A stretch of 64,000 nt of DNA from an uncultured Pseudomonadota bacterium (GCA_902826775.1 CADEHE010000001.1:633332-697331); one strand, 5' to 3'; shown: positions 19,477 to 41,000, numbered from the stretch's first letter. The notes: a model not told the origin generated them from the letters alone. A program made the numbers and translations.

Positions 19477-19851
19477 CTATTCGACCAGCGTACGGGATTC
19501 AAGCACGGTGTAGATATTCCCATCCGGGTCGCTGACACGCGCGCGCCAGACTCCCCGTGCCCGTTGGACTTCCCCAACAAAGTTCACTCCTGCACTGATC
19601 AAGCGCTGATACTCGTAACAAAAGTCAGCGACACGGACGGCGACGCGAACGGGTTTGCTTACAACTTGTGGCACGCTGCCGCCTTGCCGCGATCGAGCGT
19701 GCAATTCGATCACGCGATTACCGGCCCAAAAGCGTAGGCGACCGGCTGGAGAGTGAGGTGCAGGGCGCAACTGGAGCACGCGCTCGTAGAAGCGGCGCGC
19801 GCGCAACTCACTAGTGACTCTAATGCGTACCACTGCTCGGGCGCGAGCCAT
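19477..19851 (-). CDS. VOC-superfamily (glyoxalase/bleomycin-resistance fold) protein
   Basis: 124 residues with one beta-alpha-beta-beta-beta repeat pair. The pattern RRFYERVLQLRP (about 19-30), FWAGNRVIELHARS and RVSDPDGNIYTVLESR (about 104-119) is characteristic. The metal ligands are not obvious beyond H53 and E117. It starts 38 bp after a 30-residue membrane peptide on the same strand and is probably co-transcribed with it from regulon site B. Confidence 0.75.
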   Translation of the reverse strand: MARARAVVRIRVTSELRARRFYERVLQLRPAPHSPAGRLRFWAGNRVIELHARSRQGGSVPQVVSKPVRVAVRVADFCYEYQRLISAGVNFVGEVQRARGVWRARVSDPDGNIYTVLESRTLVE

Positions 19852-20018: not shown

Positions 20019-20064
20019 AGCATAAGCCACGACTTCTCAGTGGGGAATGCGACAAATTGTCGCA
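20019..20064 (-). promoter_or_regulatory. Regulon site B: palindrome plus -10 box for the small membrane peptide
   Basis: TGCGACAAATTGTCGCA (20048-20064) is identical to sites A and C. On the minus strand, 23 bp separate it from TATGCT (20019-20024). The transcript start would be near 20012, 30 bp before the GTG of the small peptide gene. No other gene on this strand could explain the site's position. Confidence 0.7.
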
Positions 20065-20121: not shown

Positions 20122-21261
20122 TTACGACACTGAAACACTTCTGTTCACGAGCGATTTGACACGGCGCTTGTTGTACCAAATACGAAGACCGGTAACAAAG
20201 AGCACTAGTGGAATCAGTCCCGCCAAGCACACTAAGATTCGACCGGCCAATCCGAAGGCTTTGCCATTGTGCAATGGCAGTTGCCAGCGCAAGAAAGCTT
20301 CACCCGAGCTTGTATCTTCATAGCGCCGCACGGCCAATAACTTGGCGTCGCGCGGATCGACCCAAACCTCGCTGCGGCCACCATAAGCACCAACATGGCC
20401 TGGTTCCAAGAAGGTGAAGCGATAGCTTCCGTTCGTGGTTTCTGGAAGCCACACTACGCTCAAGCGCGCGGCCGGCAGCGCGCGCTGCGCCGCGGCTAGA
20501 AGTGCGTCCGGGTTCGCGTGATGCGAGCTATGATCGGTCTGCGGGCTAGGTAGAGTGCGCACGGGCGAGAGCAGCGAAACTACTGAGGCGGCTTGCTTGG
20601 GAAAGCTCATGCATACCCCGGTGAAGGCTACAACCAAGAGCACCGCTACGCTGTATACGCCGCAATAGCGGTGAAGATCATAGTTGAATCTTGCCCCTGA
20701 TGTGCCGCGCTTAAACCAGAGGGCTTTTCGCCAACCGGCGGTGCGCGGCCACCACAGGTATAGCCCAGAGCAGCCGGACACCAAGAGCGCCAACCCACTG
20801 AAACCGACTATGGTCGCACCCGCTTCTCCCAAAAAGAGCTGCATGTGCAGGGTGTAGAGCGTATTGGTGATATTGCGCCCAGAGAACTCCATGGTCGGCA
20901 CAGCCTCGCGAGCACCGAGCACGCGGCCTTTCCAGGGATCGACCAGCACTTGCCACATAGCCGAGTTGGAATCGGATTCGGGCGTGAACCAGACATGCCA
21001 TACACCGTGCGGGCTATCTGGCGGGAACAGCGAGTGAAGGAAGCGATTCGGATGTACACGCCGAGCAGCCTCGATCACTTGGTTCAGGCTGATAGGTCTT
21101 TCGGTCGGCTGCGAGCTCACCCAGTCGGGGTTTATCCAGGCGTCGATTTCCTCGTAGAAAGCAAGGATGCTGCCAGTCAATCCAACGACCACCAGCACCG
21201 CACCAAGCGCAAACGCTAGGTAGCGATGCGTGGCAAGCCACAGCCGGCGCGTGCGCCTCAA
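20122..21261 (-). CDS. PepSY-associated membrane protein, putative ferric-siderophore reductase
   Basis: 379 residues. It has the same architecture as the protein at 16013: signature helix LATHRYLAFALGAVLVVVG then LTGSILAFYEE (about 10-45), central helices (about 150-172 and 190-217, with YDLHRYCGVYS) and a last helix (about 340-362). It starts at TTG 21261, overlapping the receptor stop as TTGA, so it is translationally coupled to the siderophore receptor. The close pairing supports a shared substrate. Confidence 0.87.
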   Translation of the reverse strand: MRRTRRLWLATHRYLAFALGAVLVVVGLTGSILAFYEEIDAWINPDWVSSQPTERPISLNQVIEAARRVHPNRFLHSLFPPDSPHGVWHVWFTPESDSNSAMWQVLVDPWKGRVLGAREAVPTMEFSGRNITNTLYTLHMQLFLGEAGATIVGFSGLALLVSGCSGLYLWWPRTAGWRKALWFKRGTSGARFNYDLHRYCGVYSVAVLLVVAFTGVCMSFPKQAASVVSLLSPVRTLPSPQTDHSSHHANPDALLAAAQRALPAARLSVVWLPETTNGSYRFTFLEPGHVGAYGGRSEVWVDPRDAKLLAVRRYEDTSSGEAFLRWQLPLHNGKAFGLAGRILVCLAGLIPLVLFVTGLRIWYNKRRVKSLVNRSVSVS

Positions 21262-23384
21262 AACTCCAATCCGGCCGTCAGAGTGACGCTCCGCGATGGC
21301 TGCCGCTGGACGAAATACCCATCAACGGTATCGAAAATGTTGGCGTCACCGATGTTCTTGAGGTTAAGGGCGAAATCGAACTTGTTTAGTTTGTAAAAGA
21401 GGCCAGCATCATACCGAGTGTACGAAGGTAGTTTGAAGCCCGAGCCCGCTTGATCGGCCGGTCTTTTATCTACCCGAACCACGCCAAGTCCCGCGGACAA
21501 TTTCCCAGGCAACGCAATCGGCAAATCGTAGACGCCCCAGAGGTTCCAGGAGGTTTTCGGGACCCCATAAAGCGCATTGCCTTCATTGCCTGATTCATCC
21601 TTCGTCACCTTTGCGAAATCGATGTAACTGAAGTTGGCGACCGCTTTTAGCCGCGCCGCCAGTTGGCCGGCTAAGGATGCTTCGAAGCCGCGGCTCTGCT
21701 GCTCGCCGTATGTCAGGTAGGTCTGAGGGTTGGATCCTGCCGTGCCGTACCTTACGTTCTTCTTCGTGATCTCATAGAGTGCGAATGTCGCGTCCAGCCC
21801 TGGTTTGACGGTGTGCTTGACGCCGATTTCATGTTGCAAACCTTTTTCTGGATCCAGAGCGCCGCCGCCAGTGCGGGCGCCTAAATTGGGTACGAACGAT
21901 TGACCGGCACTGTAGTAGACCGAGGTCTCCGGAGTAAACAAGTACATCGCCCCGATTCTTCCGGTGTTAACGCTTTCCGACTTTACGGTTGCGCCCGAGG
22001 TCGTCTCCGCGCGGTCATGTCTCATGCCGAGCATGAAGCGCCAGTTACCCCAGCTGATTTGATCATTCACATATAGGGCTTTCGTCTTGGCGCCGGACTC
22101 GTCGGCGACGTCTCCACCGGTGAAGCCGCCGGCCGGGGCTGGGATGCCGGTAGAGAAAGTGTTGGTGTAGTTTTGAAAGCAGTTTCCAGCGAAATCGCAC
22201 CCGAACTGGTCGTAAAACGCGAACTCGAATTTGGATTTGAAGTATTCGAATCCGGTCAGCAGACGGTGGCTAGTTTCCCCCAGTTTGAACCGACCGATCG
22301 CCTCGGTTTGCGCCACGGTGTTTCTCTGGTCGTCAGTCGGCCCCGCGTTGTACATGATTGGGTAGTCCGCCAACGGTGTACCGTCAAACTGATTGAATGC
22401 TGGCGACACGCCGCGGTAGTCGCGCTTTGTAGTAGAAGTGTAAAAGCCTTGCCGGAGCGCCCACTTATCGTTCACGTTGACTTTGAGCTCGAGCCGGTGT
22501 GAAGCATTCTTGTTGTTAAGCCGCGCCCAAGGCTGACTAACGGTGGCACTGTCGGGCAAATCGAAAACGCCATCGGCCATTGGCAAGCCGTTGGAGAACC
22601 CATCAATTCGCGTGCGATGAAACTCGCCCGAATACAGCAACTCCACATCGCGCGTGAGTTTTAGTGTTGCCGTGGGCGCTATCAACCATGATCTTGGTTG
22701 CTCGTATTTGACGTAACTATCGCCGGTGTCTGCCGCCAGATTCAAGCGGACCGCGAGGTTGCTGTAGTTTTTATTCAAATCCGCAGTCAGCCTTAACTTA
22801 GACCAACTCCCCGCACTCATGCTCAGATAGTTGTAATCGTACGCGAGCGGGGTCTTGGTGATGGTATTCACCGCACCAGCCGGTTGGGCCTGACCGTAGA
22901 GGACCGATGATGGGCCTTTCACGAATTCCACCCGCTCCACGTTCGCGAGATCTCGTGGCGTATAGATCTCGGATACGCGGTAACCGTCGCGATAGTTGAC
23001 GGCACCGCTGGAGAATCCGCGAATGATGAACCATTGAGAGGGCGTGTTCCCATAGCCGACGACTTGCTGCACGCCCGGCACAACGTTAACTAGATCCGCA
23101 GGCGTCGTGATCGCCTTGTCCTTAATTAGGGCCTGATCGACGACTTGCACGCTCAAGGGCGTTTCCTTGATAGGCGTGCCTGTCCTAGTGGCGCTAGTTG
23201 CCTCAGGCACGCTATAGCTTGACTGCCGCGTATCGATGACATTCAGTGGCGTCATCTGGTAGGCGTCTGGCTTTTGTTCAATCTTCTCGGTTTGTGCGGT
23301 GGCGCTCTCAAACGAAAATGCGCACGCTATACCTAGAACGATTACGTGGAATCGCAACGAATGCGAGGGACCACACTGTGGCAT
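21258..23384 (-). CDS. TonB-dependent siderophore receptor
   Basis: 708 residues. A signal peptide (about 1-30) is followed by a plug (about 60-195) with SVQVVDQALIKDKAITTPADL, WFIIRGF, VERVEFVKGPSSVLYGQ and GAVNTITKTP, the classic ferric-siderophore receptor pattern. The barrel runs to a terminal LTAGLEF. A GGGGGAAAG ribosome-binding site precedes the ATG. It heads an operon with a PepSY reductase under regulon site C. No siderophore-synthesis genes are near, so it probably takes up a foreign siderophore. Confidence 0.94.
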   Translation of the reverse strand: MPQCGPSHSLRFHVIVLGIACAFSFESATAQTEKIEQKPDAYQMTPLNVIDTRQSSYSVPEATSATRTGTPIKETPLSVQVVDQALIKDKAITTPADLVNVVPGVQQVVGYGNTPSQWFIIRGFSSGAVNYRDGYRVSEIYTPRDLANVERVEFVKGPSSVLYGQAQPAGAVNTITKTPLAYDYNYLSMSAGSWSKLRLTADLNKNYSNLAVRLNLAADTGDSYVKYEQPRSWLIAPTATLKLTRDVELLYSGEFHRTRIDGFSNGLPMADGVFDLPDSATVSQPWARLNNKNASHRLELKVNVNDKWALRQGFYTSTTKRDYRGVSPAFNQFDGTPLADYPIMYNAGPTDDQRNTVAQTEAIGRFKLGETSHRLLTGFEYFKSKFEFAFYDQFGCDFAGNCFQNYTNTFSTGIPAPAGGFTGGDVADESGAKTKALYVNDQISWGNWRFMLGMRHDRAETTSGATVKSESVNTGRIGAMYLFTPETSVYYSAGQSFVPNLGARTGGGALDPEKGLQHEIGVKHTVKPGLDATFALYEITKKNVRYGTAGSNPQTYLTYGEQQSRGFEASLAGQLAARLKAVANFSYIDFAKVTKDESGNEGNALYGVPKTSWNLWGVYDLPIALPGKLSAGLGVVRVDKRPADQAGSGFKLPSYTRYDAGLFYKLNKFDFALNLKNIGDANIFDTVDGYFVQRQPSRSVTLTAGLEF

Positions 23385-23433: not shown

Positions 23434-23507
23434 AGGGTATGCGCTAACAGGTTCGTTGAGAATGCGACAAATTGTCGCACCCTCCTCCTGGAGGCACTCG
23501 ATGTCAA
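23434..23507. promoter_or_regulatory. Regulon site C: palindrome between divergent genes
   Basis: TGCGACAAATTGTCGCA (23463-23479). Towards the receptor, a TACCCT -10 (23434-23439) lies 23 bp away, 50 bp before the ATG at 23384. Towards the HiPIP-like gene only a weak TGTCAA (23502-23507) is at the matching distance. The palindrome ends 107 bp before that start codon, the same distance as for the plus-strand genes at sites D and F. Confidence 0.7.
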
Positions 23508-23586: not shown

Positions 23587-23934
23587 ATGACGGACACCAA
23601 CTTCAGCCAGGCGCGGCGCAATTGGATCGCAGGCAGTAGCGCGGCGTATGCACTAGCCGCGGCGGGAGGACTTAGCAGGTCTGCCTCAGCCGCAGATGAT
23701 CACAAAGGGCACGGCAAAGGCGTCGCGGCGATCATGGTCGATGCGGGGCGTGAAGGCGTTTGCGCTACCTGCCGCTACTGGGGCGGGACGCGACGGGTGG
23801 CCGAAGACAAGAAGTCCGTGTACGCAGAATCTTTGGGATGGTGCAACAACTCGGAGAGCCCACATTTCCTGTCGATGCGCCAGCCGGAGGCCGGGCCCAT
23901 GAAGATGTGGCGGAAGTGGGAGGCGCTGTCCTAG
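23587..23934 (+). CDS. Small Tat-exported HiPIP-like protein with three cysteines
   Basis: 115 residues. The twin-arginine signal (ARRNWIAGSSAAYALAAAGG, about 9-28) predicts export folded, usual for proteins with a preassembled cofactor. The mature part has C59-x2-C62 (VCATCRYW) and C86 (SLGWCNN). This resembles high-potential iron-sulfur proteins, which have C-x2-C, a third Cys, and GWC near the end, but only three cysteines are present. It may hold a different cofactor or use another ligand; H39, H42 and H93 are available. It is divergent from a receptor operon across regulon site C. Its stop overlaps the convergent PepSY gene in CTAG. Confidence 0.65.
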   Translation: MTDTNFSQARRNWIAGSSAAYALAAAGGLSRSASAADDHKGHGKGVAAIMVDAGREGVCATCRYWGGTRRVAEDKKSVYAESLGWCNNSESPHFLSMRQPEAGPMKMWRKWEALS

Positions 23935-26311: not shown

Positions 26312-26316
26312 ACCGC

Positions 26317-28823: not shown

Positions 28824-30986
28824 TCAGAACGTAATTACGACGCTAGCGCTGATTGTACGTGGCGTGGCTGGCAACACTTGTCCGCCGCCAAAATAGCTCG
28901 AGGGCCTGAAGTATTTCTTGTCCGCCAGGTTGTTGACGCTCAGAGCAAAGCGCGCACGCCCGACAGCATACGACGCTTGCGCATCCCACACCGTTGCAGT
29001 CGGGGTGAAGAAGGTATTGCCGGAATCGCCGGGGAGCTTGGAGTGATGCGTCAATCCAAGCCCGAATCCAAGGCCACTGAATTTGCCTGAACGGATGTCA
29101 TAGCGGGTCGCGAGCCGCGCGCTCGTCTTGGGGACATTGAATAGTTGCTTGCCCTCAAGCACGGGATCGTCAACGACCTCTGGATCTTGATGCGTAAAGC
29201 TCGCCAGCCAGCTCCAAGACGGGTTCAATTGCCAGAGGAGATCGAGCTCGGCGCCGCGCGAACGCTGTTTGCCCGATTGGATGGAAAAGCCCGGGTTGGC
29301 CGGGTCGGCGACTATGGCGTTCTTAACTGTCAAATCGAATATAGCGAAAGTCGCGGTCACGCCTGCGAGATTCTTCAGGCGCAGGCCAATCTCGGTTTGC
29401 TCGGATTCCTCCGGTTTCGGTGGTTGCGAGAAAACCGCAAACAGCGGCACGCGCATCCCCTTGCCGTAGCCGATGAACGCTGAGGTTTGCGGTGTGAACT
29501 CATAGCTCACGCCCAAGCGTGGCGTCAATTTCGAGTTGGTCGAATGGTTGTTGACGCCGAAAACAGCGTTGACGTCGTCGGCCTTTACGCGCGTATAGCG
29601 CAGATTGCCCAGCAGGTGCAGCTTTTCGCCGATGTCCACTTGATCTTGCAGAAACACGGCGGTGCTCCGGTAGCGGTTCTCTTGATCCGGCGGGCTGGGC
29701 TCAACCGGTTCCACCCAAGTGGGATAAACAGGGTTGGTGATGTCGATAGCGCCGATGACGCCGAAATTGAAGAACGGATCAGGTGACAAGCGCAAGAATG
29801 CATCGTCGCGCGTTCGGTCGTAGTCCAAACCCGCTATGAGAGTGTGAGCGACGTTCCCGGAGCGGAGCTTGGCGATCACGGACGGCGAAATGGTGACGGA
29901 ATCGAATTCATCCCAGAGGCGCGCACCACTCACCGTCAGCAGCGGGCCCGGCTCCGCGACCGCGTTGCCGAAGAAGGTGGGGAACACGCCGCGCTGATCC
30001 ACGGCCGCTTGGGTGTAGGCCGCCGTCAGCGCCCACGACCACACGTCGTTAAAGCGTTGCGACCAATTGATGTTGATGCCGCGGGTTTCGGTGGTGGTGT
30101 CAGGCATGTCTTCGGCTGCCACGATACGGCTGCGCGGGATCGAGTATGGTGCGTCCACCACTGTGCCTCGCGTGGGCAGGCCGCTGTAATCGAGCGTCGA
30201 TACATCCGAATAGCGCAGCCGCACCGTCAATTGACTATCCGCGTTTGGGGCCCATGACAAACTGGGGAAGATCGAGGTTCGCTCGTTCTCGATGCGATCC
30301 GTTTCGCTTTCGCTGCGTCGCGCTTCACCGACTAGCCGCACGCTGACTTGGTCCGACAGCGGTTGATTGAAATCGAAGAACACGCCGCGCTCTGAATAGG
30401 AACCGATGCGCAGCCCCACTTCTCGATAGGGCGTGCGTTCCGGTGATTTGGTGGCCACCGCAATGACCCCGCCAAGGAATCCGGCGCCGCCGACTGCTTG
30501 CGCTCCGCCATACAGCGTGCTTCCAGGGCCCTTGACTACTTCGATGCGATTGACGTTGACGAGCGTTTCCGGGATCGAAAAATACCCTGGCATTGGGATG
30601 CCATCGACCACGATAGCCGCATCGAATCCGCGCACCAGAAAGTTAGTGTTGTTCGTATCGCGCTCGTCGACCAGACGCACGCTGGAGACGTTGCGTAGCG
30701 CATCCGAGAAAGTTTGCGCGCCTTGGTCATCAATCAACTTGCGAGGGATCGCGCTCACCGATTGTGGGATGCGCTCGACTGGTGTATTGGTCCGCGTCGC
30801 CGAGCTTGCATTCGGGACTGCATACGTGGATTCGCGCGCAGCCTCGACGGTGAGTGGCTCGAGACGGTAAGGCGCTTCGGTACCGGTATTTTGTGCGCTG
30901 GCTGCGCCAGCGGTTAGTAAGCAGGGAAGGATAGCGAAGCCGCCCAAGCCGGTGATTTTCTGGCGGCGACGGTGTCGATGGGTCAT
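28824..30986 (-). CDS. TonB-dependent siderophore receptor
   Basis: 720 residues. Signal peptide about 1-31 (ending AGAASAQ). The plug (about 55-190) has SVSAIPRKLIDDQGAQTFSDAL, LVRGFDAAIVVDGIPMPG and INRIEVVKGPGSTLYGG, then GGVIAVATKSP. The barrel closes with TISASVVITF. An AGGAGG lies 9 bp before the ATG. It heads an operon with the DJ-1/PfpI gene and is read from regulon site D. It resembles the receptor at 21258 in its plug start (STYAVPNASSATRTNTP against SSYSVPEATSATRTGTP), so the two are paralogues. Confidence 0.93.
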   Translation of the reverse strand: MTHRHRRRQKITGLGGFAILPCLLTAGAASAQNTGTEAPYRLEPLTVEAARESTYAVPNASSATRTNTPVERIPQSVSAIPRKLIDDQGAQTFSDALRNVSSVRLVDERDTNNTNFLVRGFDAAIVVDGIPMPGYFSIPETLVNVNRIEVVKGPGSTLYGGAQAVGGAGFLGGVIAVATKSPERTPYREVGLRIGSYSERGVFFDFNQPLSDQVSVRLVGEARRSESETDRIENERTSIFPSLSWAPNADSQLTVRLRYSDVSTLDYSGLPTRGTVVDAPYSIPRSRIVAAEDMPDTTTETRGININWSQRFNDVWSWALTAAYTQAAVDQRGVFPTFFGNAVAEPGPLLTVSGARLWDEFDSVTISPSVIAKLRSGNVAHTLIAGLDYDRTRDDAFLRLSPDPFFNFGVIGAIDITNPVYPTWVEPVEPSPPDQENRYRSTAVFLQDQVDIGEKLHLLGNLRYTRVKADDVNAVFGVNNHSTNSKLTPRLGVSYEFTPQTSAFIGYGKGMRVPLFAVFSQPPKPEESEQTEIGLRLKNLAGVTATFAIFDLTVKNAIVADPANPGFSIQSGKQRSRGAELDLLWQLNPSWSWLASFTHQDPEVVDDPVLEGKQLFNVPKTSARLATRYDIRSGKFSGLGFGLGLTHHSKLPGDSGNTFFTPTATVWDAQASYAVGRARFALSVNNLADKKYFRPSSYFGGGQVLPATPRTISASVVITF

Positions 30987-31060: not shown

Positions 31061-31133
31061 ATTTTGACGCAACGATAGGTCGTGTAGGTGCGGCAATTTG
31101 TCGCACTAGCGTTCGTAGTCGAGCTAATAGAAT
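31061..31133. promoter_or_regulatory. Regulon site D: palindrome serving divergent receptor and TlpA genes
   Basis: TGCGGCAATTTGTCGCA (31089-31105). On the minus strand CAAAAT (31061-31066) lies 22 bp away, before the receptor. On the plus strand TAGAAT (31128-31133) lies 22 bp away, before tlpA. The two -10 boxes are almost symmetric about the palindrome, as expected for an activator working in both directions. Confidence 0.68.
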
Positions 31134-31211: not shown

Positions 31212-31709
31212 ATGCGAAATCGCGCCGCGTTCCCTCTAGCCGTGCTCCTCGGTTTCTTCTCGTCGCGTGCCGACGCTGTCGAGGTCGGCGTGCCGGCCCC
31301 CGCCTGCGCACTTCGCCCCTTCTCAGAGGCGCCAGAAGTCCTTACCGCTCAGTTGATCGGTAAGGTCGTCGTTATTGACTTCTGGGCATCGTGGTGCGGC
31401 CCATGTGCGAAATCATTCCCATTTCTGAACGAGTTGGTGCGCGAGCATCGCGACGACGCTGTTCACGTGCTGGGCGTGAATATGGATGAGCATCGCACCG
31501 ACGCGGAAGGATTTCTTAAGCGCCACCCAAATCTTTTTCAAATTGCAACCGATGTCGACGCTCAATGCGCCAAGGCATTCGGCGTGAAGGCGATGCCATC
31601 TTCTTACGTCATCGATAAGAAGGGCTTTGTTCGTGCGGTGGTTAGGGGATTCCAGGCGAGCGACGCAAAGACGATCCGGGAGAGAATTGAATATCTACTC
31701 AAAGAGTAA
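31212..31709 (+). CDS. TlpA/ResA-type periplasmic thioredoxin
   Basis: 165 residues. A signal peptide (about 1-22) is followed by a thioredoxin fold with W61-C62-G-P-C65 and the cis-Pro in AMPSSYVID (about 133-141). TlpA-type proteins reduce disulfides in the periplasm, mostly in haem-protein or copper-protein assembly. It is convergent with the apbE-DUF3570-DUF4266 operon. Associations of thioredoxin, ApbE, DUF4266 and DUF3570 recur in bacteria, so it probably serves that set, for example by keeping the CGC tail of the DUF4266 lipoprotein reduced. Confidence 0.88.
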   Translation: MRNRAAFPLAVLLGFFSSRADAVEVGVPAPACALRPFSEAPEVLTAQLIGKVVVIDFWASWCGPCAKSFPFLNELVREHRDDAVHVLGVNMDEHRTDAEGFLKRHPNLFQIATDVDAQCAKAFGVKAMPSSYVIDKKGFVRAVVRGFQASDAKTIRERIEYLLKE

Positions 31710-31789: not shown

Positions 31790-32728
31790 TCACGATTGGG
31801 GCTTCTCGACTAGCGCTTTTAACGAACCTCCGCTGTTGCCCTGCGTGTCGATCCAATAGTGCGGCAGCCCCAAGTCGTTCAGCCACCTCGGGCCTGTTTC
31901 CTCCTTGAGCATGGCAATCGTGGAAGCGCTGCCTGCAACCACGCAAAAATCGCTGACTACCGTCACGGAGGCGAGGTGTTGCACCGGCCAGCCGGTTTTC
32001 GGGTTGAGCACATGGCCATAGCGCTTGCCGTCAATGAGCATGCAACGCGCGTAGTCGCCGCTACTGGTTAGGCCGCCGCGATGCAATGCCACGTTACCTA
32101 TCGCGACATTTTGAGCCAGGCGCGGATGTTGAATGCCGATGTTCCACGGAGCGCCATCCGGTTGCGGGCCGATGATGCGAATATCGCCGCCAAGGTTGAT
32201 GAAACCGTGCCGTATGCCTAGGTTCTGGCACAGCGTTGCTATGCGATCGGCTGCGTATTCCTTGACGATGCCGCCAAAGTCGAGTTCCATTCCTGGCACT
32301 GGAAAATCCAGTACGGGAGCTTGCCATCGCAATTTGTGCCAACCGATCCGGCTTAGCAGTGCCTGGATCTGCTGCTCCTGTGGGAGTGTGCCGGATTTGA
32401 AATCCCAAGCCTGACGCAAAATGCCGGAGGTAATGTCGAACAAGCCGTCGCTTTGCGCGTGACAGGTTGCCGCGTAGTTCAACAATCCCGCCGTTTCTTC
32501 GTCCACGCTGATGCTGCCCCCGCGCGACGCTACTTGGTTGATCTCGGAAAGAAAACTCGATGCTCGGTAGCGCGAGTAGCGTTGCTCTAGCCGCTCCACA
32601 TCAGCGATCGCCGTACTCGCTACCATCTGTGCTTGGTCCGCGACGCCGGCGTAGAACTGCAACTCGCAAGGCGATCCCATCGCCTTGAAGGGGAAGCTCA
32701 ATAGTGATTCTGTGCCGGAACTTGGCAT
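31790..32728 (-). CDS. apbE: FAD:protein FMN transferase (ApbE)
   Basis: 312 residues, normal length. Attaches FMN to Thr/Ser of exported redox proteins. The conserved motifs are AMGSPCEL (about 16-23), VERLEQRYSRYR (about 44-55), MELDFGGIVKEYAADRI (about 148-164), GGDIRIIG and LTSSGDYAR, then GHVLNPKTGWP (about 237-247). No lipobox is clear. It starts 51 bp after the large DUF3570 gene and is probably the third gene of that operon. I found no protein in the window with the usual flavinylation motif (D-x-x-S/T-G-A-T), so its substrate lies elsewhere or is unusual. Confidence 0.93.
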   Translation of the reverse strand: MPSSGTESLLSFPFKAMGSPCELQFYAGVADQAQMVASTAIADVERLEQRYSRYRASSFLSEINQVASRGGSISVDEETAGLLNYAATCHAQSDGLFDITSGILRQAWDFKSGTLPQEQQIQALLSRIGWHKLRWQAPVLDFPVPGMELDFGGIVKEYAADRIATLCQNLGIRHGFINLGGDIRIIGPQPDGAPWNIGIQHPRLAQNVAIGNVALHRGGLTSSGDYARCMLIDGKRYGHVLNPKTGWPVQHLASVTVVSDFCVVAGSASTIAMLKEETGPRWLNDLGLPHYWIDTQGNSGGSLKALVEKPQS

Positions 32729-32779: not shown

Positions 32780-35614
32780 TTAAAACATCGTACTCCAGCT
32801 TAAAGTCCAAGCGCCCTTGCGTTCCAGCTGATAGCCGTTGAAATCGTCCTGCAACGGTTGTAACCATTCGAATTTAAGCGCGTTGCCGGCAAAGCTGCCA
32901 CTCGGTACGGTAAAACTAACGCCCAGCCCTAAATCCCAGAACTTGCCGCCGTAGCTGGCCGGCTGATCGAAGGGGCCGACGTGTTGTGGGACATAGGGCT
33001 CGCCTGTGTTCGGGTCAATTTCCGTCGATGCCGGGTATCTGCCCTGAATCGCGCCTTGACGCGTGTAAATTCCGCGCATGGTAGCAGCCAGCCGCCTCGT
33101 AAACTTATAGCCGCCCCATATGCTGCTTTGATAGTGGTCGCCCAATCGATAGCCGGATTTGTTTCGGCTTTCTAGCCGCTTGGTTCCGGTCAATTGAGCA
33201 CCCCAGAAAAATCGTTCCGCGCTTCCGACATAGGTCAGCGTCGGGATAAAGTCCCAAGTGCCACTCCCAAGTTGCATGCCATAGTGGATCCGCTGGCCAC
33301 TAGGATCAGGGTTCGTGGCCGTTTTTCTTAGCTCTATCCCGACATCGCCGGTCGGCGCACTTAAGCCCAAGCCAACATTCACTTGATGCTCGGGGCGGTC
33401 CAAAAGCTTGAACAGGGCGTGCACGCCGGTATCGCCTAACCCACCGGTTTGGTGATTGTGAACGTCGCCGCCGTGGCCGTGACCACTTCCCGTGTCTTCA
33501 GTCAGTGGGGTCAAGTTCATTTGCATATCCATCCACTGCGGCATCACCATCAAGGTCAACTTGTTGTTCCACGCGTACATGAACTCGAGCATGTGCATGT
33601 TCATGGTCATCTTGTTGGGTGCAACTTGGCATTCTTGATTGCCGCAGGCAATCAGCCGCACTGTGTCTAAACTCACAGCGTCCGAGCCTTGCAGTACATT
33701 CCCCGCTTGTTCGCTGCTCATGTAGCGGTAGCCCAGCATGAAATCACCGCTTTTCGCTAATGCGTGGTTAAACATGACGCCTGCGGGCGCCAAATCGGCG
33801 TGGTTGGTGTGCATATCGCCATGCCGCTCAAAAACGTCATTGCTGGCTTCGCTCCCAGAGCTTGGCTTGATCTGCTCCATATCGACGCGCAGGGCGGCGT
33901 TAAGGGTGTAGTAACTGAAGTCGGCAAACGATTGTTCACCGCCACCACTGAGTTTTAGGTCGCCGGCGTGTTTGTAGCGCTCATAGCCTATCTCCAGGCT
34001 GATGCCTTTAGCGAATCGTTTATTGATGGTTATGCCGGCACCCAAAGCGCCAAACGCGGACAAACGCTGATCGCTGGAGTAGTGCTCAGGCAGGCGCAGT
34101 TGATTCCAGGGGTGGTCGATCAATTCGCCGTTCTCGTCCGTCACAACAAGCTGAAAAAGGTATGGGTGGTAGAAGTCGGCGCTCGATTGCGAGTAGTAGC
34201 GCGCGTGTGGCGTCACTGTCCAGCCTCGGCCTAAAGGCTGGACCCACTGTGCCTGCAGTGCATGCGCCCGTATGCCCCAGTCATCGTGAGTGTACTGATA
34301 GTCCAGGTGAAGTGCGGCATCTGCCCGCGGGAAGTAGTGCTGATAACCTAAGCTCCAGCTGACTTGCTCGCGTTTCTCGGGCCGCCTCTCGAGGATGCTA
34401 TCCATAGAGGCTATTGCCGGGCCCGCCTGCAATTGATCGAGCGTGGCGGCAGCGCCTACGCGCGTCACCAGCTTGTAAGGGTTGGCCATGTAGCCTTTGT
34501 TTCGGGCGTAGTCCAGCCGGAATTTCACCAAACTATTCTTGCTGAGCACTTGGGAGAGTCCTAGCTGCAGGCCCACGTCCTCGCGCTTGCCCTGAATTTT
34601 GGCCGCGGTCAACGTGCCATCGCCAAACTCATTTTGCTCGTAGGTGGTCTCAATTTGACCGGGACCAGAACGTTTTCTATGCCGGAAGCAACAAAACTCA
34701 TCTGTCTCGTCGAAAAACAATTCTTCATAGCCGAACGTGTCGATGAATGACACGGCGTCAGGATCGAGTGTGGCCGACGTGCGGTTGCGCGTGTAGCTTA
34801 GCCCAGCATTGACGGCTGTTTGCTTTTGATTGAAATCCCAGCGCCCACCCAAGTTCAAAAAGCGTGATCTGAAGTCGTTCTCGCGTGAAACCCCTGCCCC
34901 CACATAGGCTGCAGAGTCGTCCCATTCATGCGTGAGCTTAAAATCCAGTTGCTTGCGCGCTTCAGGCGATGCGGTGGACATGGTATGGGTCAGTTGATTG
35001 TCCCGCACGCCAGGCAGCAATGTGCCAATATCATCCCGACTTCCTTGTCGATAAAAGTTCAACTTTTCATCGATAAAGAATTCCTTGAGTCCGTCGCGCA
35101 CAAGAGGGGAAGCACCTGAGACTACATTGGGCGAGTTTGTGCCAGCAACCACTGGTGCAGTTGAGATTGGTGATGCGCCGGACCAGGTGTCTTGCGTCAA
35201 GTTCACGCCCAACTTCCAACGTCCGCTCAAAGTCATTCGAGCACGGCCATTTAGAGTGTCCACCTCTATGGGCCGTGGGCTGGTCAATTTAGATTTACCT
35301 GAAAAGAGCCCTGTCTCAGAGTCAAATACGACGCCGAGGACACCTTGGCGTCGATCTTCGCGGTAGCGTCCGTACTGAAAGTCAATGCCGTCTCCTTCCG
35401 CCGCCGCGCAGACAGGCGAAGGAGACAAGCCTGGCAGCGCGAGCGCGGCCAAAGTCAAGGCGCTCAGCGCCGATCGCGGCGGCAATACCCGTTGCGCAGC
35501 CGCCCGCGCGGCGAGCGAATCTTTGGCGCAAGAGAGCAGTTGCGCTATTAGCCCACTGAGAATCTTGCGCGCAAATTTTCGGCTGCTGTGATTGCTGATT
35601 CTAGTAGCAGCCAC
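32780..35614 (-). CDS. DUF3570 protein fused to a Met/His-rich transporter-like barrel (copy 1)
   Basis: 944 residues from GTG 35614, preceded by AAGGAGG at 5 bp; the longer frame has no start that fits. A long basic N-region and hydrophobic signal (about 45-75) are followed by DGIDFQYGRYRED and a DUF3570 barrel (about 75-590), with WSGASPI and many aromatic-ended strands. The C-terminal third (about 600-944) is a second outer-membrane barrel-like unit with AGVMFNHALAKSGDFMLGYRYM, a Met-rich run (MTMNMHMLEFMY, MPQWMDMQMNL), a His-rich loop (HGHGGDVHNH), LSAPTGDVGI and a terminal aromatic. Usual DUF3570 proteins are about half this size. Met/His clusters suggest copper or similar metal contact (inference). 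It overlaps the DUF4266 gene by 14 bp. Confidence 0.82.
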   Translation of the reverse strand: MAATRISNHSSRKFARKILSGLIAQLLSCAKDSLAARAAAQRVLPPRSALSALTLAALALPGLSPSPVCAAAEGDGIDFQYGRYREDRRQGVLGVVFDSETGLFSGKSKLTSPRPIEVDTLNGRARMTLSGRWKLGVNLTQDTWSGASPISTAPVVAGTNSPNVVSGASPLVRDGLKEFFIDEKLNFYRQGSRDDIGTLLPGVRDNQLTHTMSTASPEARKQLDFKLTHEWDDSAAYVGAGVSRENDFRSRFLNLGGRWDFNQKQTAVNAGLSYTRNRTSATLDPDAVSFIDTFGYEELFFDETDEFCCFRHRKRSGPGQIETTYEQNEFGDGTLTAAKIQGKREDVGLQLGLSQVLSKNSLVKFRLDYARNKGYMANPYKLVTRVGAAATLDQLQAGPAIASMDSILERRPEKREQVSWSLGYQHYFPRADAALHLDYQYTHDDWGIRAHALQAQWVQPLGRGWTVTPHARYYSQSSADFYHPYLFQLVVTDENGELIDHPWNQLRLPEHYSSDQRLSAFGALGAGITINKRFAKGISLEIGYERYKHAGDLKLSGGGEQSFADFSYYTLNAALRVDMEQIKPSSGSEASNDVFERHGDMHTNHADLAPAGVMFNHALAKSGDFMLGYRYMSSEQAGNVLQGSDAVSLDTVRLIACGNQECQVAPNKMTMNMHMLEFMYAWNNKLTLMVMPQWMDMQMNLTPLTEDTGSGHGHGGDVHNHQTGGLGDTGVHALFKLLDRPEHQVNVGLGLSAPTGDVGIELRKTATNPDPSGQRIHYGMQLGSGTWDFIPTLTYVGSAERFFWGAQLTGTKRLESRNKSGYRLGDHYQSSIWGGYKFTRRLAATMRGIYTRQGAIQGRYPASTEIDPNTGEPYVPQHVGPFDQPASYGGKFWDLGLGVSFTVPSGSFAGNALKFEWLQPLQDDFNGYQLERKGAWTLSWSTMF

Positions 35615-35825
35615 ACCCGCCTCCTTGTGCAGCCCCGCCGCTTGCGGCGGCTTCGCGGGTGTTGTAGGTATGCGCGCGCAATAGGCTCTGCATCGGGTTG
35701 GGATCCACAGCCATGTGCGGCTTGGCGAGATTGCCGCGTTCCCATGGCGCCACGGTTGTGCAACCTGCAAAGCCGCTGGATAAGGCAATTAGTAGCGCAG
35801 CGCTCGCACACGTTGCTTTATCCAT
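35601..35825 (-). CDS. DUF4266 lipoprotein with GGGCGCY tail (copy 1)
   Basis: 74 residues from ATG 35825, with AGAGG upstream. The signal ends GFAGC, so C22 is probably lipidated. The DUF4266 core VAPWERGNLAKPHMAVDPNP is at about 25-44. A glycine-rich end GGAAQGGGCGCY carries two cysteines (C71, C73). The codons for this tail also form the AAGGAGG and GTG of the next gene. A lipid at one end and a CGC metal- or disulfide-capable tail at the other suggests an envelope metal carrier or anchor (inference). Function unknown. Confidence 0.85.
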   Translation of the reverse strand: MDKATCASAALLIALSSGFAGCTTVAPWERGNLAKPHMAVDPNPMQSLLRAHTYNTREAAASGGAAQGGGCGCY

Positions 35826-35943
35826 CGTCTGATTCCTCTGAGAGTTCTTGCTGGGGGGGCACAATAGTGCCGTCGCTCGCGTTGCGCCAAAAGCCGCGTG
35901 CGCGAGTCGCTATGTGGCGATGATCATGACACGCCGGTACCTT

Positions 35944-35988
35944 GTTGTAAACGGAGCAAGGCTTACGCAGCTGCGGCAATTTGCCGCA
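35944..35988 (-). promoter_or_regulatory. Regulon site E: palindrome before DUF4266 copy 1
   Basis: TGCGGCAATTTGCCGCA (35972-35988) sits inside an even longer palindrome with 12-bp arms (35968-35992, CAGCTGCGGCAA...TTGCCGCAGCTG). On the minus strand TACAAC (35944-35949) lies 22 bp away. The DUF4266 start is about 119 bp further on. Confidence 0.6.
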
Positions 35989-36105
35989 GCTGCTGAGCGA
36001 AGAAATGCCGCGGGGCAATTCGTGCGAATGCCGCCCATAGCGTACCAAGGCCGCCAACACATATGGCGGTAAAAGATTCGTGCGAGCGGGAGCTAGTCAT
36101 TTGGG

Positions 36106-36151
36106 TGCGACAAAATGCCGCATTGGCTTCACGTGACCGCTGAGGTAGGCT
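36106..36151 (+). promoter_or_regulatory. Regulon site F: palindrome before the secreted-protein pair
   Basis: TGCGACAAAATGCCGCA (36106-36122) differs from the consensus palindrome at two places. TAGGCT (36146-36151) lies 23 bp downstream. The palindrome ends 106 bp before ATG 36229. The remaining bases between 35825 and 36229 hold only sites E and F. Confidence 0.55.
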
Positions 36152-36228
36152 ATCGCCCCGCTTGGTCGCTAAGCCGTTTTGACGAATCAAGCGGTCACTA
36201 TTCGCAACTATCTATATTGGAGATTCGC

Positions 36229-36735
36229 ATGACTAGAACGCAGATTGCCAAGAGCTTGGTGCTGACCATGCTCGGGCTTGCCGGTGCTGGGACAAGTTAC
36301 GCACACGAGCCGCGAGTTATCGGCGGCGATTGCAATGTTGAGGTGGGCTGGCAAATCGAGCCTGCGTTGGAAGACGTCGACAACTATGCGGTGCTGATCA
36401 TTGAGGACTGCGGCGGCTTACCGGTGGCCGCAGGCGACATCAACATTACGGTGAAAGCGCTGCGGTTGCACCGTGACGCTTTCAATGCCCCAGTGTTAAA
36501 TCAGCTAACCCTGGGCACGATGAAGACTATAGAGAATTTCGGCTCCATTCAGCTTACGCCTAGCGTTGATGGCGCATATGGATTCGTGCTGAACGGCACT
36601 ATTGCTGGTCGCGCCATCAACAACGAAAAGTTTGTCTGCGGCGACGGCAGCCAATCCGCCGGCGAAGAGTTCGATTGCGTCGTAAATCCACGAGTGTTCC
36701 CCGGTCCGAGCACCAACCGGTACTTACCGAATTGA
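36229..36735 (+). CDS. Secreted hypothetical protein (168 residues)
   Basis: Start ATG 36229 with TGGAG upstream. A signal peptide (about 1-25, ending SYAHEP) is followed by a mature domain of likely beta structure: GGDCNVEVGWQIEPALEDV, NYAVLIIEDCGG, and a late CGDGSQ...FDCVV. Four cysteines at about 33, 63, 142 and 153 could form two disulfides. Family not recognised. It is the first gene after regulon site F and precedes a second secreted protein gene by 67 bp. It lies between the two DUF4266-DUF3570 operons, so it likely belongs to the same system. Confidence 0.7.
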   Translation: MTRTQIAKSLVLTMLGLAGAGTSYAHEPRVIGGDCNVEVGWQIEPALEDVDNYAVLIIEDCGGLPVAAGDINITVKALRLHRDAFNAPVLNQLTLGTMKTIENFGSIQLTPSVDGAYGFVLNGTIAGRAINNEKFVCGDGSQSAGEEFDCVVNPRVFPGPSTNRYLPN

Positions 36736-36802
36736 TAGGACAGCACATTGAACTTGTCGAAACACGGCGAGTGCTTAACAATCTCTCGGGAAAGGAACAA
36801 TC

Positions 36803-37309
36803 GTGATCAATCGATATTCGGCAAAGCGCTTGGCCGTGGCGGTCTTGCTCGGCAGCGTATGCGCTGCCGCACCGTCGACTTGGGCCCACTGGACACACAG
36901 CGGCCAGTTGGGTAGTGCGAGCACAGCTGTCGACATTTTGCAGTACACGTGCGCCGCGAGCTACAACGGGAGCAATTTTACTGCGTTCGAGGCCAGGGTT
37001 AGGGACAAGTTGCCGGTTGCCACGCCTTATGTTCGCGTGCAGGCGCAGCGTGTTTCCCCCCTGCTTAACGGCTTGTTGAGGACTGACCCCAATTCGAATT
37101 CGGCGGTTGGTGACGGCGATACCGTAGCAGGCGGGACTGCGAGCCCGATGTCCAACGTGGCAACGACCGCCGGCGACTCGCGCGTCTATAAGATATACGT
37201 CTCAAAGAGTGCCACCGGCATCGAGTTTTATGAGCTTGACTACCATTGCCTGTATGGGGCTACTCCACATCCGGCACCGGGGGCGCTGATCTACCTTCAG
37301 AATCAATAG
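36803..37309 (+). CDS. Secreted hypothetical protein (168 residues)
   Basis: GTG start with AAAGGAAC upstream. The signal peptide (about 1-28) ends STWAHWTHSG. The mature part contains ILQYTCAASYNGSNFTAFEARVRD and YVRVQAQRV, then FYELDYHCLYG near the end; two cysteines (about 50 and 151) could pair. Predicted mostly beta. The family was not recognised. It is the second gene of the pair and is followed directly by a strong intrinsic terminator, which defines the operon end. Confidence 0.7.
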   Translation: MINRYSAKRLAVAVLLGSVCAAAPSTWAHWTHSGQLGSASTAVDILQYTCAASYNGSNFTAFEARVRDKLPVATPYVRVQAQRVSPLLNGLLRTDPNSNSAVGDGDTVAGGTASPMSNVATTAGDSRVYKIYVSKSATGIEFYELDYHCLYGATPHPAPGALIYLQNQ

Positions 37310-37324
37310 ATTTCGCGTTCTGGG

Positions 37325-37359
37325 CAGCGGTGCTTCCTCGGAGCATCGCTGTCTTTTTT
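37325..37359 (+). terminator. Intrinsic terminator of the secreted-protein operon
   Basis: A 10-bp stem (CAGCGGTGCT / AGCATCGCTG, one G-U pair) with loop TCCTCGG is followed by TCTTTTTT. It lies 15 bp after the stop codon at 37309. It is the clearest intrinsic terminator seen in the window. Confidence 0.88.
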
Positions 37360-37402
37360 AGGACGGCCGGCGGCTTCATTGGCCGTTTCGCGGACAGGCT
37401 TA

Positions 37403-37654
37403 CTAGTCGCCGGGCGCGACGGGGATCAGCCTTTGTCCCCGGTCTGATCGCCTTGCACCGCAGTGCATATCAGACAGGATTCTATCGCTGCGGTAGCGTG
37501 AATAGCGCTGTTCCAGGCGCTCGACTTCTTGTCTGCCCAACTCGAACGCAGCCTGAGCCTCGTGTGCCGTTTCGGCGAACAATCGAATCTCGCAGGGTGA
37601 ACCCATTGCGGGAAACGCAAACTTCGATAGTTGCAGGCGTTCGAAGCGATTCAT
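37403..37654 (-). pseudogene. ApbE N-terminal stump
   Basis: The first 62 residues match the intact apbE at 31790: FAFPAMGSPCEIRLFAETAH against FPFKAMGSPCELQFYAGVAD, and both have VERLEQRYSRYR. Similarity stops at about residue 62 (RILSDMH). The last 20 residues are unrelated, and none of the FAD- or metal-binding motifs remain. It lies back-to-back with the second DUF4266 gene, which suggests that this copy of the set once had its own apbE. Confidence 0.85.
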
Positions 37655-37714
37655 TCAGTGCCTAGCTCAACGGCCAGTAACCGACCGAGCCCAGAGTTTT
37701 CCACTGCTGGCACC

Positions 37715-37760
37715 TGCGACAATTTGCCGCATTCCTCAGCGGCGGCGAACGCATTAGTAT
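37715..37760 (+). promoter_or_regulatory. Regulon site G: palindrome before DUF4266 copy 2
   Basis: TGCGACAATTTGCCGCA (37715-37731) is followed 23 bp later by TAGTAT (37755-37760), a good -10 without a -35. The DUF4266 start at 37964 is 204 bp further, so the leader would be long. Nothing else was seen between 37655 and 37964. Confidence 0.65.
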
Positions 37761-37963
37761 TTGCTGGCTGCATGAGATGCGCCCCAAGAGAACGGCGCGC
37801 TCATGATACCGGGAGGGCGCGTGGATAAATATCGCGAAAGCGAATGCCGCGCAAGGGAGGATGTCTGCCGAGCTGCGTTGCGAGCATGCGGCCCGGCGCC
37901 GCGTATCCCTTCGTCTCCCACTTGCGCTGCGCCACGCCGCATACATCGAAGGAAGGGGAGACC

Positions 37964-38197
37964 ATGACGCACCATCACAGGCAGATCGCACGCACGCGGT
38001 TGCTACTGGTGTTTTGTCTGCCATGGCTGGTCGCTTGTGCTCAAGTGCAGCCGTGGGAGCGCGGTAACTTGGCGAAGCCGCAAATGGCAATCGACCCGCA
38101 GCCGATGCAGAGCACGTTAAGCTCACACGTGCACAACAGCCGCGAGGGCACCGCTAGCGGTGGCGCCGGAGAAGGAGGCGGCTGTGGCTGCTACTAG
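37964..38197 (+). CDS. DUF4266 lipoprotein with GGGCGCY tail (copy 2)
   Basis: 77 residues from ATG 37964, with AAGGAAGGGGAG upstream. The lipobox LVAC gives C25. The core VQPWERGNLAKPQMAIDPQP (about 28-47) is nearly identical to copy 1. The tail GGAGEGGGCGCY has cysteines C74 and C76. Again the tail codons contain AAGGAGG and the GTG start of the next gene. Signal peptides of the two copies differ completely while the core and tail are conserved, so the mature part is under selection. Confidence 0.85.
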   Translation: MTHHHRQIARTRLLLVFCLPWLVACAQVQPWERGNLAKPQMAIDPQPMQSTLSSHVHNSREGTASGGAGEGGGCGCY

Positions 38198-41000
38198 CAA
38201 GCGCACAAGCCGGCCGCAAATAAGCCGGATCCTTGCCTGGCTGCTCAGCCGGTTGGACGGTATTCCCGCTGGCCGGTTTGCGTCGCAAAAAAACGCGGGC
38301 CGATCGTTAACGGCGTTGACGATCGCCGCTCTGGCTCTGCCGGGCATGACGCCGCGACAGTCCGGCGCGGTTGAAGACGATGGCGTGGATTTTCAGTACA
38401 GCCGCTATCGGGAGGGCGATCGTGACATGTACCGCTATCATTTTGGAGAGGGGTACGTCTACAAACTTCCAAACAAGCTCGAACCAATCGAGGTGGATGG
38501 GCTGCACGCTAAGGCGCGATTGCGTCTTTCTGATCGGTTCAAGCTAAAGTTCAATTTCATTCAGGATACTTGGTCCGGTGCTTCGCCAATCGGTAGCGCA
38601 CCGGTCATTTCGGGCGGCGGCAACGGACCGACGTATGCAGAGGATGGTACGACCATCACCGGCGCATCGCCGCTGGCATCTTTGCCGATGTACGGCGATC
38701 TTGCCGTCGACCGCGACGGCAATTTCTATGAGTACCAAACCGACCCGAATACCGGGCAGCGCATCATTGGTGCGCGCAACAACCGCCACACCCATGTGAT
38801 GAGTTCTGCTTCCCCTGAGACCCGGAAGCAAGGCGATTTCAAACTGACATACGAGTGGAACGAGGCGGCGCTGGACGTCGGCGCCGGCACATCAACCGAA
38901 CGCGACTATCGTTCGCAGTTCTTCAATTTGGGTGGCCGTTTAGACTTCAACCAGAAGCTGACGACATTCAATTGGGGGCTCAGCTATACCAGCAGCGAAA
39001 CCAAGGCGAAGCTCGATCCGGATGCGTTGCCTTTCATTGCCACCGATCTTTATGACAAATCCCTTTGCTTTTCTGATGGGACGCTCATTCCTATGCAACC
39101 TACCGTGCCGACTGGGTACGTCGAGGGCAATTGCGTCGACGACGGGCAAGGCCAATTTGTCCGCACTGAAGCGACTTTACGTGGCAAGCGGCAGGACCGA
39201 GGCATCGAGCTGGGGCTGACCCAAGTGCTGAACAAGAACGCATTGCTGACGCTGGGTCTGGGTTATACGCGCAGCACCGGATATATGGCGAACCCGTACA
39301 AAGTGGTGTTTGGACATACCGTTGTATTCAACGTGAACAACGATGATGATCCCATCGGCCAGACGAATTTGTACGGCAATACAGGCAGCAGCGCTTTGGT
39401 GGAGGTGCGGCCGGAGAAACGTGAATTGTTCGACTGGCACCTTGGCTATAAGCGCTACGTGGAATCCCTCGATGCCGCGTTGCACCTTGACTACCACTAT
39501 GCGCACGACGACTGGGGCATCCGAGCGCACACCTTGGAAGGAAAATGGGTGCAGCCGTTCGGCACCGGTTGGACGGTGACGCCGCGGCTGCGCTATTACT
39601 CTCAGTCGCAAGCCGATTTCTATGCGACGGCCATCTTCGAAATGACCCGCTACAACTTTGATGCGAGCGGTGCTTTCGTCGATACGACATCGTTGCGTAA
39701 ATTTCCGAAGCACTACTCTAGCGATCAGCGTCTTTCGGGTTACGGCACGTTGGGCGCAGGATTTTCTCTGAGCAAGCGGTTCGCGAGGGGGGTCACGGCT
39801 GAAGCGGGCTACGACTACTACACGCACAAAGGCAGCTTGAAGCTCGGGGGCGGGGGGGAGGACGACTTTGCCGACTTTCACTACTGGGTGGCCAATGCGG
39901 CGATCAAGGTTGACTTGGACGCAGTCGGCGGCAGCCGCGGTGATCCTCAGCCGCAGCAACACGACGCGCATTCGCAGCACCAACATAGCAGCGCCCCCGC
40001 CGGAGTCATGTTCGATCATGCCTTGGGCAAGGCGGGCGAGTTCATGCTCGGCTATCGCTACATGCGCAGCACGCAAGGCGGCGGTTTGCTATTTGGCAGC
40101 AACAGCGTAAACGTCGATACAGTGCGCCAGGCGGGCTGCGAGAGCCAGGAGTGTGCGGTGACGCCGCGCGCCATGTCGATGAACATGCACATGTTGGACC
40201 TGATGTATGCGCCTAAGGATTGGTTAACGCTAACGCTGATGCCGCAATGGGTGGATATGAGCATGAGCATGACGCCCAATCCGAACGTTCAACTCAGCGG
40301 CGCGCATGGCGCGCACAGCACTGGGCATAGACACGAAACCGGCGGCATGGGCGATACCGGCATCTACGCAATCGCCAAGCTGCTCGATAAACCGGGGCAC
40401 CATCTGAACCTCGCGCTGGGCGCCACCATTCCTACCGGTGATGTGGATATCCGGCTGCGCAAGACATTGACGACACCCGTCTACGATCAGCGCATCCACT
40501 ACGGCATGCAGCTCGGCAGCGGTACTTGGGATTTGCAGCCTAGCCTGACCTATACGGGAGAAGCAGGCCGCCTTTCTTGGGGGGCACAGTTGACGGGTAC
40601 TGCGCGCATGGAAAAGCGCAACGATTCGGGTTTCGCTTTCGGCGACATTTTTCAGAGCAGCGTCTGGGGCGGGGTGCGCTGGACGCCGTGGCTTACCGGC
40701 ACGTTGCGCGGCGTGTATACCACACAAGGTCGGCTGCGCGGCCGCTATCCGGCAAGCGAGGAAATAGATATATACACCGGCGAATTGTTCGTGCCGGAGC
40801 ACCTAGGGCCGTTTGATTTCCCCAGCAACTACGGCGGCAAGTTTGTCGATATAGGCGTTGGGCTAAACGCCACTCTCGGAGGTGCTTGGCGCGGCAGTAA
40901 CCTCAAGCTCGAGTGGTTGCAGCCGGTGCGCGAAAAGGTTAATGGTTACCAACAGGAACGCGAGAGCACGTGGGTGTTTAGCTGGAATATGCAGTTCTAG
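38184..41000 (+). CDS. DUF3570 protein fused to a Met/His-rich transporter-like barrel (copy 2)
   Basis: 938 residues from GTG 38184. It is built like copy 1: N-region and signal (about 1-60), DGVDFQYSRYREGDRDMYRY, DUF3570 barrel with WSGASPIGSAPVI, then a His-rich link (HDAHSQHQHSS, about 592), AGVMFDHALGKAGEFMLGYRYM, C-x4-C pair (CESQEC, about 651), Met-rich MSMNMHMLDLMY and MPQWVDMSMSM, HGAHSTGHRHETGG, IPTGDVDIRL and a terminal aromatic. The two copies diverge mainly in loops. The stop shares CTAG with the convergent hydrolase gene. Confidence 0.82.
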   Translation: MAATSKRTSRPQISRILAWLLSRLDGIPAGRFASQKNAGRSLTALTIAALALPGMTPRQSGAVEDDGVDFQYSRYREGDRDMYRYHFGEGYVYKLPNKLEPIEVDGLHAKARLRLSDRFKLKFNFIQDTWSGASPIGSAPVISGGGNGPTYAEDGTTITGASPLASLPMYGDLAVDRDGNFYEYQTDPNTGQRIIGARNNRHTHVMSSASPETRKQGDFKLTYEWNEAALDVGAGTSTERDYRSQFFNLGGRLDFNQKLTTFNWGLSYTSSETKAKLDPDALPFIATDLYDKSLCFSDGTLIPMQPTVPTGYVEGNCVDDGQGQFVRTEATLRGKRQDRGIELGLTQVLNKNALLTLGLGYTRSTGYMANPYKVVFGHTVVFNVNNDDDPIGQTNLYGNTGSSALVEVRPEKRELFDWHLGYKRYVESLDAALHLDYHYAHDDWGIRAHTLEGKWVQPFGTGWTVTPRLRYYSQSQADFYATAIFEMTRYNFDASGAFVDTTSLRKFPKHYSSDQRLSGYGTLGAGFSLSKRFARGVTAEAGYDYYTHKGSLKLGGGGEDDFADFHYWVANAAIKVDLDAVGGSRGDPQPQQHDAHSQHQHSSAPAGVMFDHALGKAGEFMLGYRYMRSTQGGGLLFGSNSVNVDTVRQAGCESQECAVTPRAMSMNMHMLDLMYAPKDWLTLTLMPQWVDMSMSMTPNPNVQLSGAHGAHSTGHRHETGGMGDTGIYAIAKLLDKPGHHLNLALGATIPTGDVDIRLRKTLTTPVYDQRIHYGMQLGSGTWDLQPSLTYTGEAGRLSWGAQLTGTARMEKRNDSGFAFGDIFQSSVWGGVRWTPWLTGTLRGVYTTQGRLRGRYPASEEIDIYTGELFVPEHLGPFDFPSNYGGKFVDIGVGLNATLGGAWRGSNLKLEWLQPVREKVNGYQQERESTWVFSWNMQF

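Follow-up and report, generated by a model that had tools for sequence, protein, structure and literature searches.

A putative redox-responsive regulon around predicted flavinylated, methionine-rich double-barrel proteins: a candidate copper acquisition system in an uncultured Pseudomonadota bacterium and in ammonia and methane oxidisers

The DNA analysed here (the window) is a stretch of 64,000 nt from an uncultured Pseudomonadota bacterium (GCA_902826775.1 CADEHE010000001.1:633332-697331) with a genome of 5,417,317 bases. Pfam searches and open reading frames revealed two oppositely oriented DUF4266-DUF3570 gene pairs, together with one intact ApbE gene, one ApbE remnant, one TlpA gene and two genes for secreted proteins (Table 1), and the two operons with these partners that had been predicted from the sequence are thus real. 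The Pfam matches had E-values of 5e-74 for ApbE, about 1e-110 for the two DUF3570 domains (PF12094) and about 1e-20 for the two DUF4266 domains, and TlpA/Redoxin was also confirmed. In both copies, the GTG start of the DUF3570 gene overlaps the stop codon of the DUF4266 gene. The original prediction had the whole unit present twice, which holds for the DUF4266-DUF3570 pair but not for ApbE, with its single intact gene and remnant, or for TlpA, with its single gene. The cysteine-containing tail GGGCGCY was found as predicted at the end of both DUF4266 copies, and CGC[YN] is conserved in all 54 of the 54 DUF4266 proteins surveyed. The expected co-occurrence of the two families was likewise seen, DUF4266 and DUF3570 being adjacent in 21/21 of the unfused loci examined.

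Table 1. Genes and operator sites in the window (positions counted from its first nucleotide).
Feature	Position	Strand	Remarks
PepSY_TM protein	16013..17254	-	55% identical to G513 counterpart
TonB-dependent receptor	17283..19313	-	55% identical to G513 receptor under same operator
Operator TGCGACAAATTGTCGCA	19434..19450		
Glyoxalase-fold protein (PF00903)	19477..19851	-	behind operator at 20048
30-codon membrane peptide VRKLVEWLTAFNIAAAIILFFLMLQLASAA	19890..19982	-	directly behind operator at 20048, ahead of glyoxalase-fold gene
Operator TGCGACAAATTGTCGCA	20048..20064		
PepSY_TM protein	20122..21261	-	downstream of receptor 21258-23384
TonB-dependent receptor	21258..23384	-	nearest solved: CntO/FoxA
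Operator TGCGACAAATTGTCGCA	23463..23479		
Small secreted protein, CxxC, N-terminal RR (twin-arginine-like) signal	23587..23934	+	divergent from TonB receptor across operator; without Pfam family
TonB-dependent siderophore-type receptor	28824..30986	-	nearest solved: enantio-pyochelin receptor, CntO/FoxA
Operator TGCGGCAATTTGTCGCA	31089..31105		between TonB receptor and TlpA
TlpA-like periplasmic thioredoxin, WCGPC, signal peptide	31212..31709	+	Pfam
ApbE flavinyltransferase, sole intact copy of cluster	31790..32728	-	Pfam
DUF3570-METBAR fusion copy 1	32780..35614	-	SGAS twice; 52% identical to copy 2
DUF4266 small lipoprotein copy 1	35601..35825	-	lipobox FAGC; tail GGGCGCY
Operator TGCGGCAATTTGCCGCA	35972..35988		upstream of DUF4266 copy 1
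Operator TGCGACAAAATGCCGCA	36106..36122		upstream of secreted proteins
Secreted HEPR protein	36229..36735	+	predicted mature N-terminus HEPR after signal peptide
SEC2-family secreted protein	36803..37309	+	predicted mature N-terminus AHW; His148, His156; HMM E=4e-16
ApbE N-terminal remnant, 83 aa, decayed partner of copy 2	37403..37654	-	49% identical to ApbE over 61 aa
Operator TGCGACAATTTGCCGCA	37715..37731		between ApbE remnant and DUF4266 copy 2
DUF4266 small lipoprotein copy 2	37964..38197	+	lipobox LVAC; tail GGGCGCY
DUF3570-METBAR fusion copy 2	38184..41000	+	SGAS residue 131, TGAS 159; His linker; C-terminal Met-rich PF13557-like channel domain

The core of the locus belongs to a known system. 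Meheust et al. (2021; PMC8238504) described clusters of ApbE, DUF3570, thioredoxin and DUF4266, 316 of them away from DsbD, and demonstrated by co-expression that a DUF3570 protein of Chlorobium luteolum is flavinylated by ApbE at both of its motifs. In the same study, redox cycling was proposed for the C-terminal CXC motif of DUF4266, DsbD, as electron source, was present in only part of the clusters, and VIT1 was found in some DUF3570 clusters, a possible role in iron assimilation being the sole function suggested. Considering this work, beyond which a full-text literature search for DUF4266/DUF3570 gave nothing usable, the original view of a fully undescribed system of families known by name only has to be abandoned. 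The window shares with the described clusters the four-gene core, the two [ST]GA[ST] motifs in each DUF3570 protein, the CXC at the DUF4266 C-terminus and a thioredoxin-like electron donor, and both window barrels are predicted from these motifs to carry covalently attached flavin. A DsbD-like gene was not apparent next to the window cluster. ApbE proteins usually read AD-x-x-S/T at one position; AG or GG stands there in nearly all DUF3570-associated ApbEs, from fused and unfused loci, the window's included.

The double-barrel architecture foreseen for the large protein is also seen in its AlphaFold model (mean pLDDT 74), which has two beta-barrel domains. In both window copies, the DUF3570 domain is followed by a second, methionine-rich C-terminal domain, here termed METBAR, whose AlphaFold model aligns with the COG4313 channel 4rl8 over 253 residues at 2.6 A (Z 23.7; Foldseek E=3.5e-11); METBAR of copy 2 also scores above the curated cut-off of Phenol_MetA_deg (PF13557; 25.1 bits vs 22). 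A sequence search of solved structures with the fusion profile gave no match. Twelve methionines are invariant among 31 METBAR sequences and several of them alternate on neighbouring strands, methionine making up on average 5.9% of METBAR and 0.9% of the DUF3570 half of the same proteins. Based on this alternation, we infer that the alternating methionines face the lumen. The fold is thus the one of the COG4313 / Phenol_MetA_deg channel, to which the window protein adds the twelve invariant methionines, a His-rich linker and the fusion to a predicted flavinylated barrel. It is this fusion of DUF3570 to a C-terminal COG4313-like, methionine-rich outer-membrane channel that is new, and the core that was known. 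A METBAR-like domain with a His/Gly-rich linker and a different N-terminal barrel was also observed on a Methylosinus plasmid (L154, 7576-9792), directly upstream of feoB.

The distribution of the fusion is narrow. DUF3570 occurred in 29 of 398 genomes sampled from the phylum, and long fused frames were present only in the window genome and in one other (G015), which carries three amoA/pmoA copies. A scan of contigs by peptide patterns recovered about 50 fusions of full length, almost exclusively from Methylococcales. A restriction to methanotrophs was considered and proved wrong, because a later genome search found an AMO-bearing genus that the peptide patterns had missed. Among 100 genomes sampled from one family of the window's order, all 53 with DUF3570 belonged to a single genus (g16), which is probably Nitrosomonas, and 52 of these 53 have long fused frames, the frame of the remaining one (G455) being shorter and broken-looking. 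The AMO/pMMO family PF02461 was detected in 46/58 fused carriers (37/47, 1/1 and, from g16, 8/10) and above cut-off in 0/27 unfused DUF3570 carriers, counts that are not independent since AMO carriers are phylogenetically clustered. In the genomes sampled, the fusion therefore occurs nearly only in pMMO/AMO bacteria, a trend that the clusters of Meheust et al. do not share. No AMO/pMMO was found in the window genome, which speaks against a role of the locus in copper supply.

Secreted proteins with a predicted N-terminal histidine accompany the fusion. The SEC2 gene lies directly upstream of TlpA in fusion-bearing genomes, and the histidine at the predicted mature N-terminus of SEC2, the cleavage site being judged by eye, covaries with two C-terminal histidines: all three are present in 53 of 66 sequences and all absent in 13 (two of which are poorly aligned or truncated), with no mixed case. 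Such an all-or-none pattern is what one would expect if three histidines, the N-terminal one among them, together bound a metal. The SEC2 model is a beta-sandwich for which a fold search returned generic beta-sandwich matches only (best Z 9.8), and no match was obtained when solved structures were searched by sequence with the SEC2 profile. For the HEPR protein, which the SEC2 profile does not match, a search of 348 further genomes of the order gave no homologue; it was therefore rejected as a widespread partner, and a role in the system can be proposed only tentatively. A second secreted family, HIS5 (L023-L070), which has no Pfam family and is absent from the window, is encoded upstream of SEC2-TlpA in methanotrophs and g16, and its predicted mature N-terminal histidine stands in AHT/AHA in 28/31 sequences. 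In three other loci (L184, L199, L203), a secreted protein with the predicted mature N-terminus HEGEPNMAF is preceded by the operator described below, a TonB receptor (Pfam) being next in L184.

The operator proposed to join the genes of the locus was confirmed. The palindrome TGCGRCAWWWTGYCGCA occurs seven times in the window, where 0.24 sites would be expected if up to two mismatches are allowed, and has exactly seven exact sites in the whole genome, all of them at 19434-37731 of the window, i.e., within 18.3 kb; a reversed control pattern had no match in the genome. Each of the seven is in an intergenic position 61-144 bases ahead of a gene start. The genes and units behind them are TonB receptor/PepSY_TM units, TlpA, the two DUF4266 genes, those for the secreted proteins and that for a 30-codon membrane peptide. 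The regulon hence reaches beyond the DUF4266-DUF3570 region at 32780-41000 to the TonB-receptor/PepSY_TM genes at 16-24 kb. A TonB receptor frame without a plug domain, possibly a broken receptor, also lies in the window at 25169-26311 on the minus strand and is followed by a third PepSY_TM gene. The operator was found in 11/11 tested g16 genomes with the fusion versus 0/4 genomes with unfused DUF3570, and in g16 it stands beside a HIS5-SEC2-TlpA-DUF4266-DUF3570-ApbE operon and beside a TonB/PepSY pair 55% identical to its orthologous pair in the window. Its position next to the same genes is conserved in both ammonia oxidisers and methane oxidisers. The described flavinylation clusters differ from the window type in these respects as well, the latter being linked to SEC2/HIS5 proteins, TonB/PepSY_TM units and a shared RegA-type operator, with its DUF3570 fused to the methionine-rich channel.

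Two observations, namely motif likeness and position, point to the RegB/RegA redox two-component system as the regulator. The half-sites of the operator agree with the RegR consensus GNGRCRTTNNGNCGC cited in PMC5506826, the TT positions of the consensus being W in the operator. The operator also stands upstream of regB/regA in five genomes: in three Methylococcales and one g16 genome (L204, L206, L207, L210), and in the window genome itself (L228), where a one-mismatch copy precedes by 72 bases a gene that resembles regB, has the motifs HELGTPL and GGYMNP, and adjoins regA. Based on this, the operator is probably a box of the RegB/RegA (PrrBA, ActSR, RoxSR, RegSR) regulon, from which the present case differs in that the seven exact sites of the window genome are confined to one 18.3-kb cluster of metal type. 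A regulator gene within the cluster was considered, and the ORF lists gave no obvious candidate next to the operators; regBA lies on another contig. A literature search for a link between RegB and copper returned nothing usable.

A predicted flavinylated outer-membrane protein, a thioredoxin donor and a redox two-component box would also be found in a RegBA-controlled system for extracellular electron transfer or redox balancing, in which the flavin barrel passes surplus reductant to external acceptors and metal uptake is a side effect, and a multiheme cytochrome gene does lie near the operator in one relative (L188). However, such a function would leave the methionine-rich channel, the histidine-tipped secreted proteins and the TonB/PepSY_TM units under the same operator unexplained, and we regard it as improbable.

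The wider regulon bears on the choice of the metal. The TonB receptor-then-PepSY_TM order under common control is the same as in Bordetella, where the TonB copper importer CrtA acts with the PepSY_TM protein CrpH (PMC12914433, PMC13038864). In the window, two receptors are in contrast nearest to siderophore/metallophore receptors (FoxA/CntO, enantio-pyochelin) and not to known copper receptors, and the third is nearest to YncD/PqqU. Together with the FecI/FecR/TonB sets, typical of iron systems, that follow some operators in relatives, and with the METBAR-like domain beside feoB in Methylosinus, these receptors argue against copper and, with their PepSY_TM partners, for the main rival metal, iron, with which VIT1 in some DUF3570 clusters (PMC8238504) would also agree. 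The electron path would then be the same, the surface flavin reducing ferric iron or ferrisiderophores whose product enters the second barrel, and the TonB/PepSY_TM units would import and reduce ferrisiderophores. The invariant methionine ladders and the N-terminal-histidine sites are, however, ligands of copper type, the fusion tracks copper monooxygenases, and CorA-like/MauG and multicopper-oxidase genes stand under the same operator. Moreover, the operator is, to our knowledge, unlike the classical Fur box. We retain iron as a rival explanation, albeit a less likely one than copper.

Copper is favoured by these ligand types, by the link with copper monooxygenases, and by the presence of CorA/MauG and multicopper-oxidase genes in the regulon. 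In relatives, the operator precedes CorA-like/MauG pairs and one multicopper-oxidase pair in addition to the FecI/FecR/TonB sets. The CorA-like/MauG pairs, found in AMO-bearing relatives, recall the copper-repressible surface proteins CorA/MopE of methanotrophs and their MauG-type partner, but they are absent from the window, and Pfam support for CorA in the relatives is weak (PF18252 matches below the curated cut-off). In methanotrophs, copper limitation and not excess induces CorA and MauG-family genes (PMC11784148, PMC4831470), which argues against copper tolerance, in which the system would oxidise, sequester or export the surplus metal. The Met/His-rich proteins, a CopD-cytochrome gene near the G015 cluster and the multicopper-oxidase pair would fit such detoxification too, but TonB receptors with PepSY_TM proteins are import machinery and a reducing chain of TlpA and flavin would yield Cu(I), the more toxic form, so that tolerance appears very improbable.

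We therefore lean, with only modest confidence, towards copper acquisition: the locus would encode a RegBA-controlled surface flavin reductase together with a Cu(I) pore, as part of a dedicated regulon that acquires a scarce redox metal, most probably copper. In the proposed scheme, electrons would pass from TlpA to the thiols in the CGC tail of the DUF4266 lipoprotein and on to FMN, which ApbE would attach to the SGAS/TGAS motifs of the outer-membrane DUF3570 barrel, flavinylation having been demonstrated for a relative (PMC8238504). The flavin may then reduce Cu(II) to Cu(I), and Cu(I) might cross the fused C-terminal COG4313-like barrel along a path of soft ligands formed by the alternating invariant methionines, given the orientation and conduction assumed here. 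SEC2, whose histidines covary, and perhaps the HEPR protein, could bind the metal, presumably copper, via an N-terminal-histidine site, and the TonB receptors and PepSY_TM partners, judging by their families, may import chelated metal in parallel. With all units under one palindrome, a candidate RegB/RegA box, metal uptake would be tied to the redox state of the quinone pool.

The outer-membrane redox/metal system of the original prediction is retained, with TlpA and the CGC tail as probable electron carriers, but metal handling suits the methionine barrel and the histidine-tipped proteins better than it suits the CGC tail. That prediction had not included the sites of flavinylation, the second barrel with its many methionines, the secreted protein with its histidine tip, the RegA-type nature of the operator or the wider extent of the regulon. 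A more specific version, in which a flavinylated metal reductase and a methionine-lined Cu(I) channel are joined in a single outer-membrane polypeptide that draws on periplasmic thiol electrons and is controlled by RegB/RegA, and which would give ammonia and methane oxidisers, as well as the window organism, a TonB-independent route of copper import, is put forward tentatively, with clearly less than even confidence.

For the flavinylation field, the combination of a flavin barrel and a methionine-rich channel is a new domain architecture, and one that is linked to the box of a redox two-component system instead of a metal repressor. Methane and ammonia oxidisers need copper monooxygenases, and how most of them take up copper, in particular those without methanobactin, is an open question. 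The near-restriction of the fusion to methane- and ammonia-oxidising bacteria suggests a new entry route for copper, and the locus offers a concrete, conserved and genetically testable candidate for copper uptake in these organisms.
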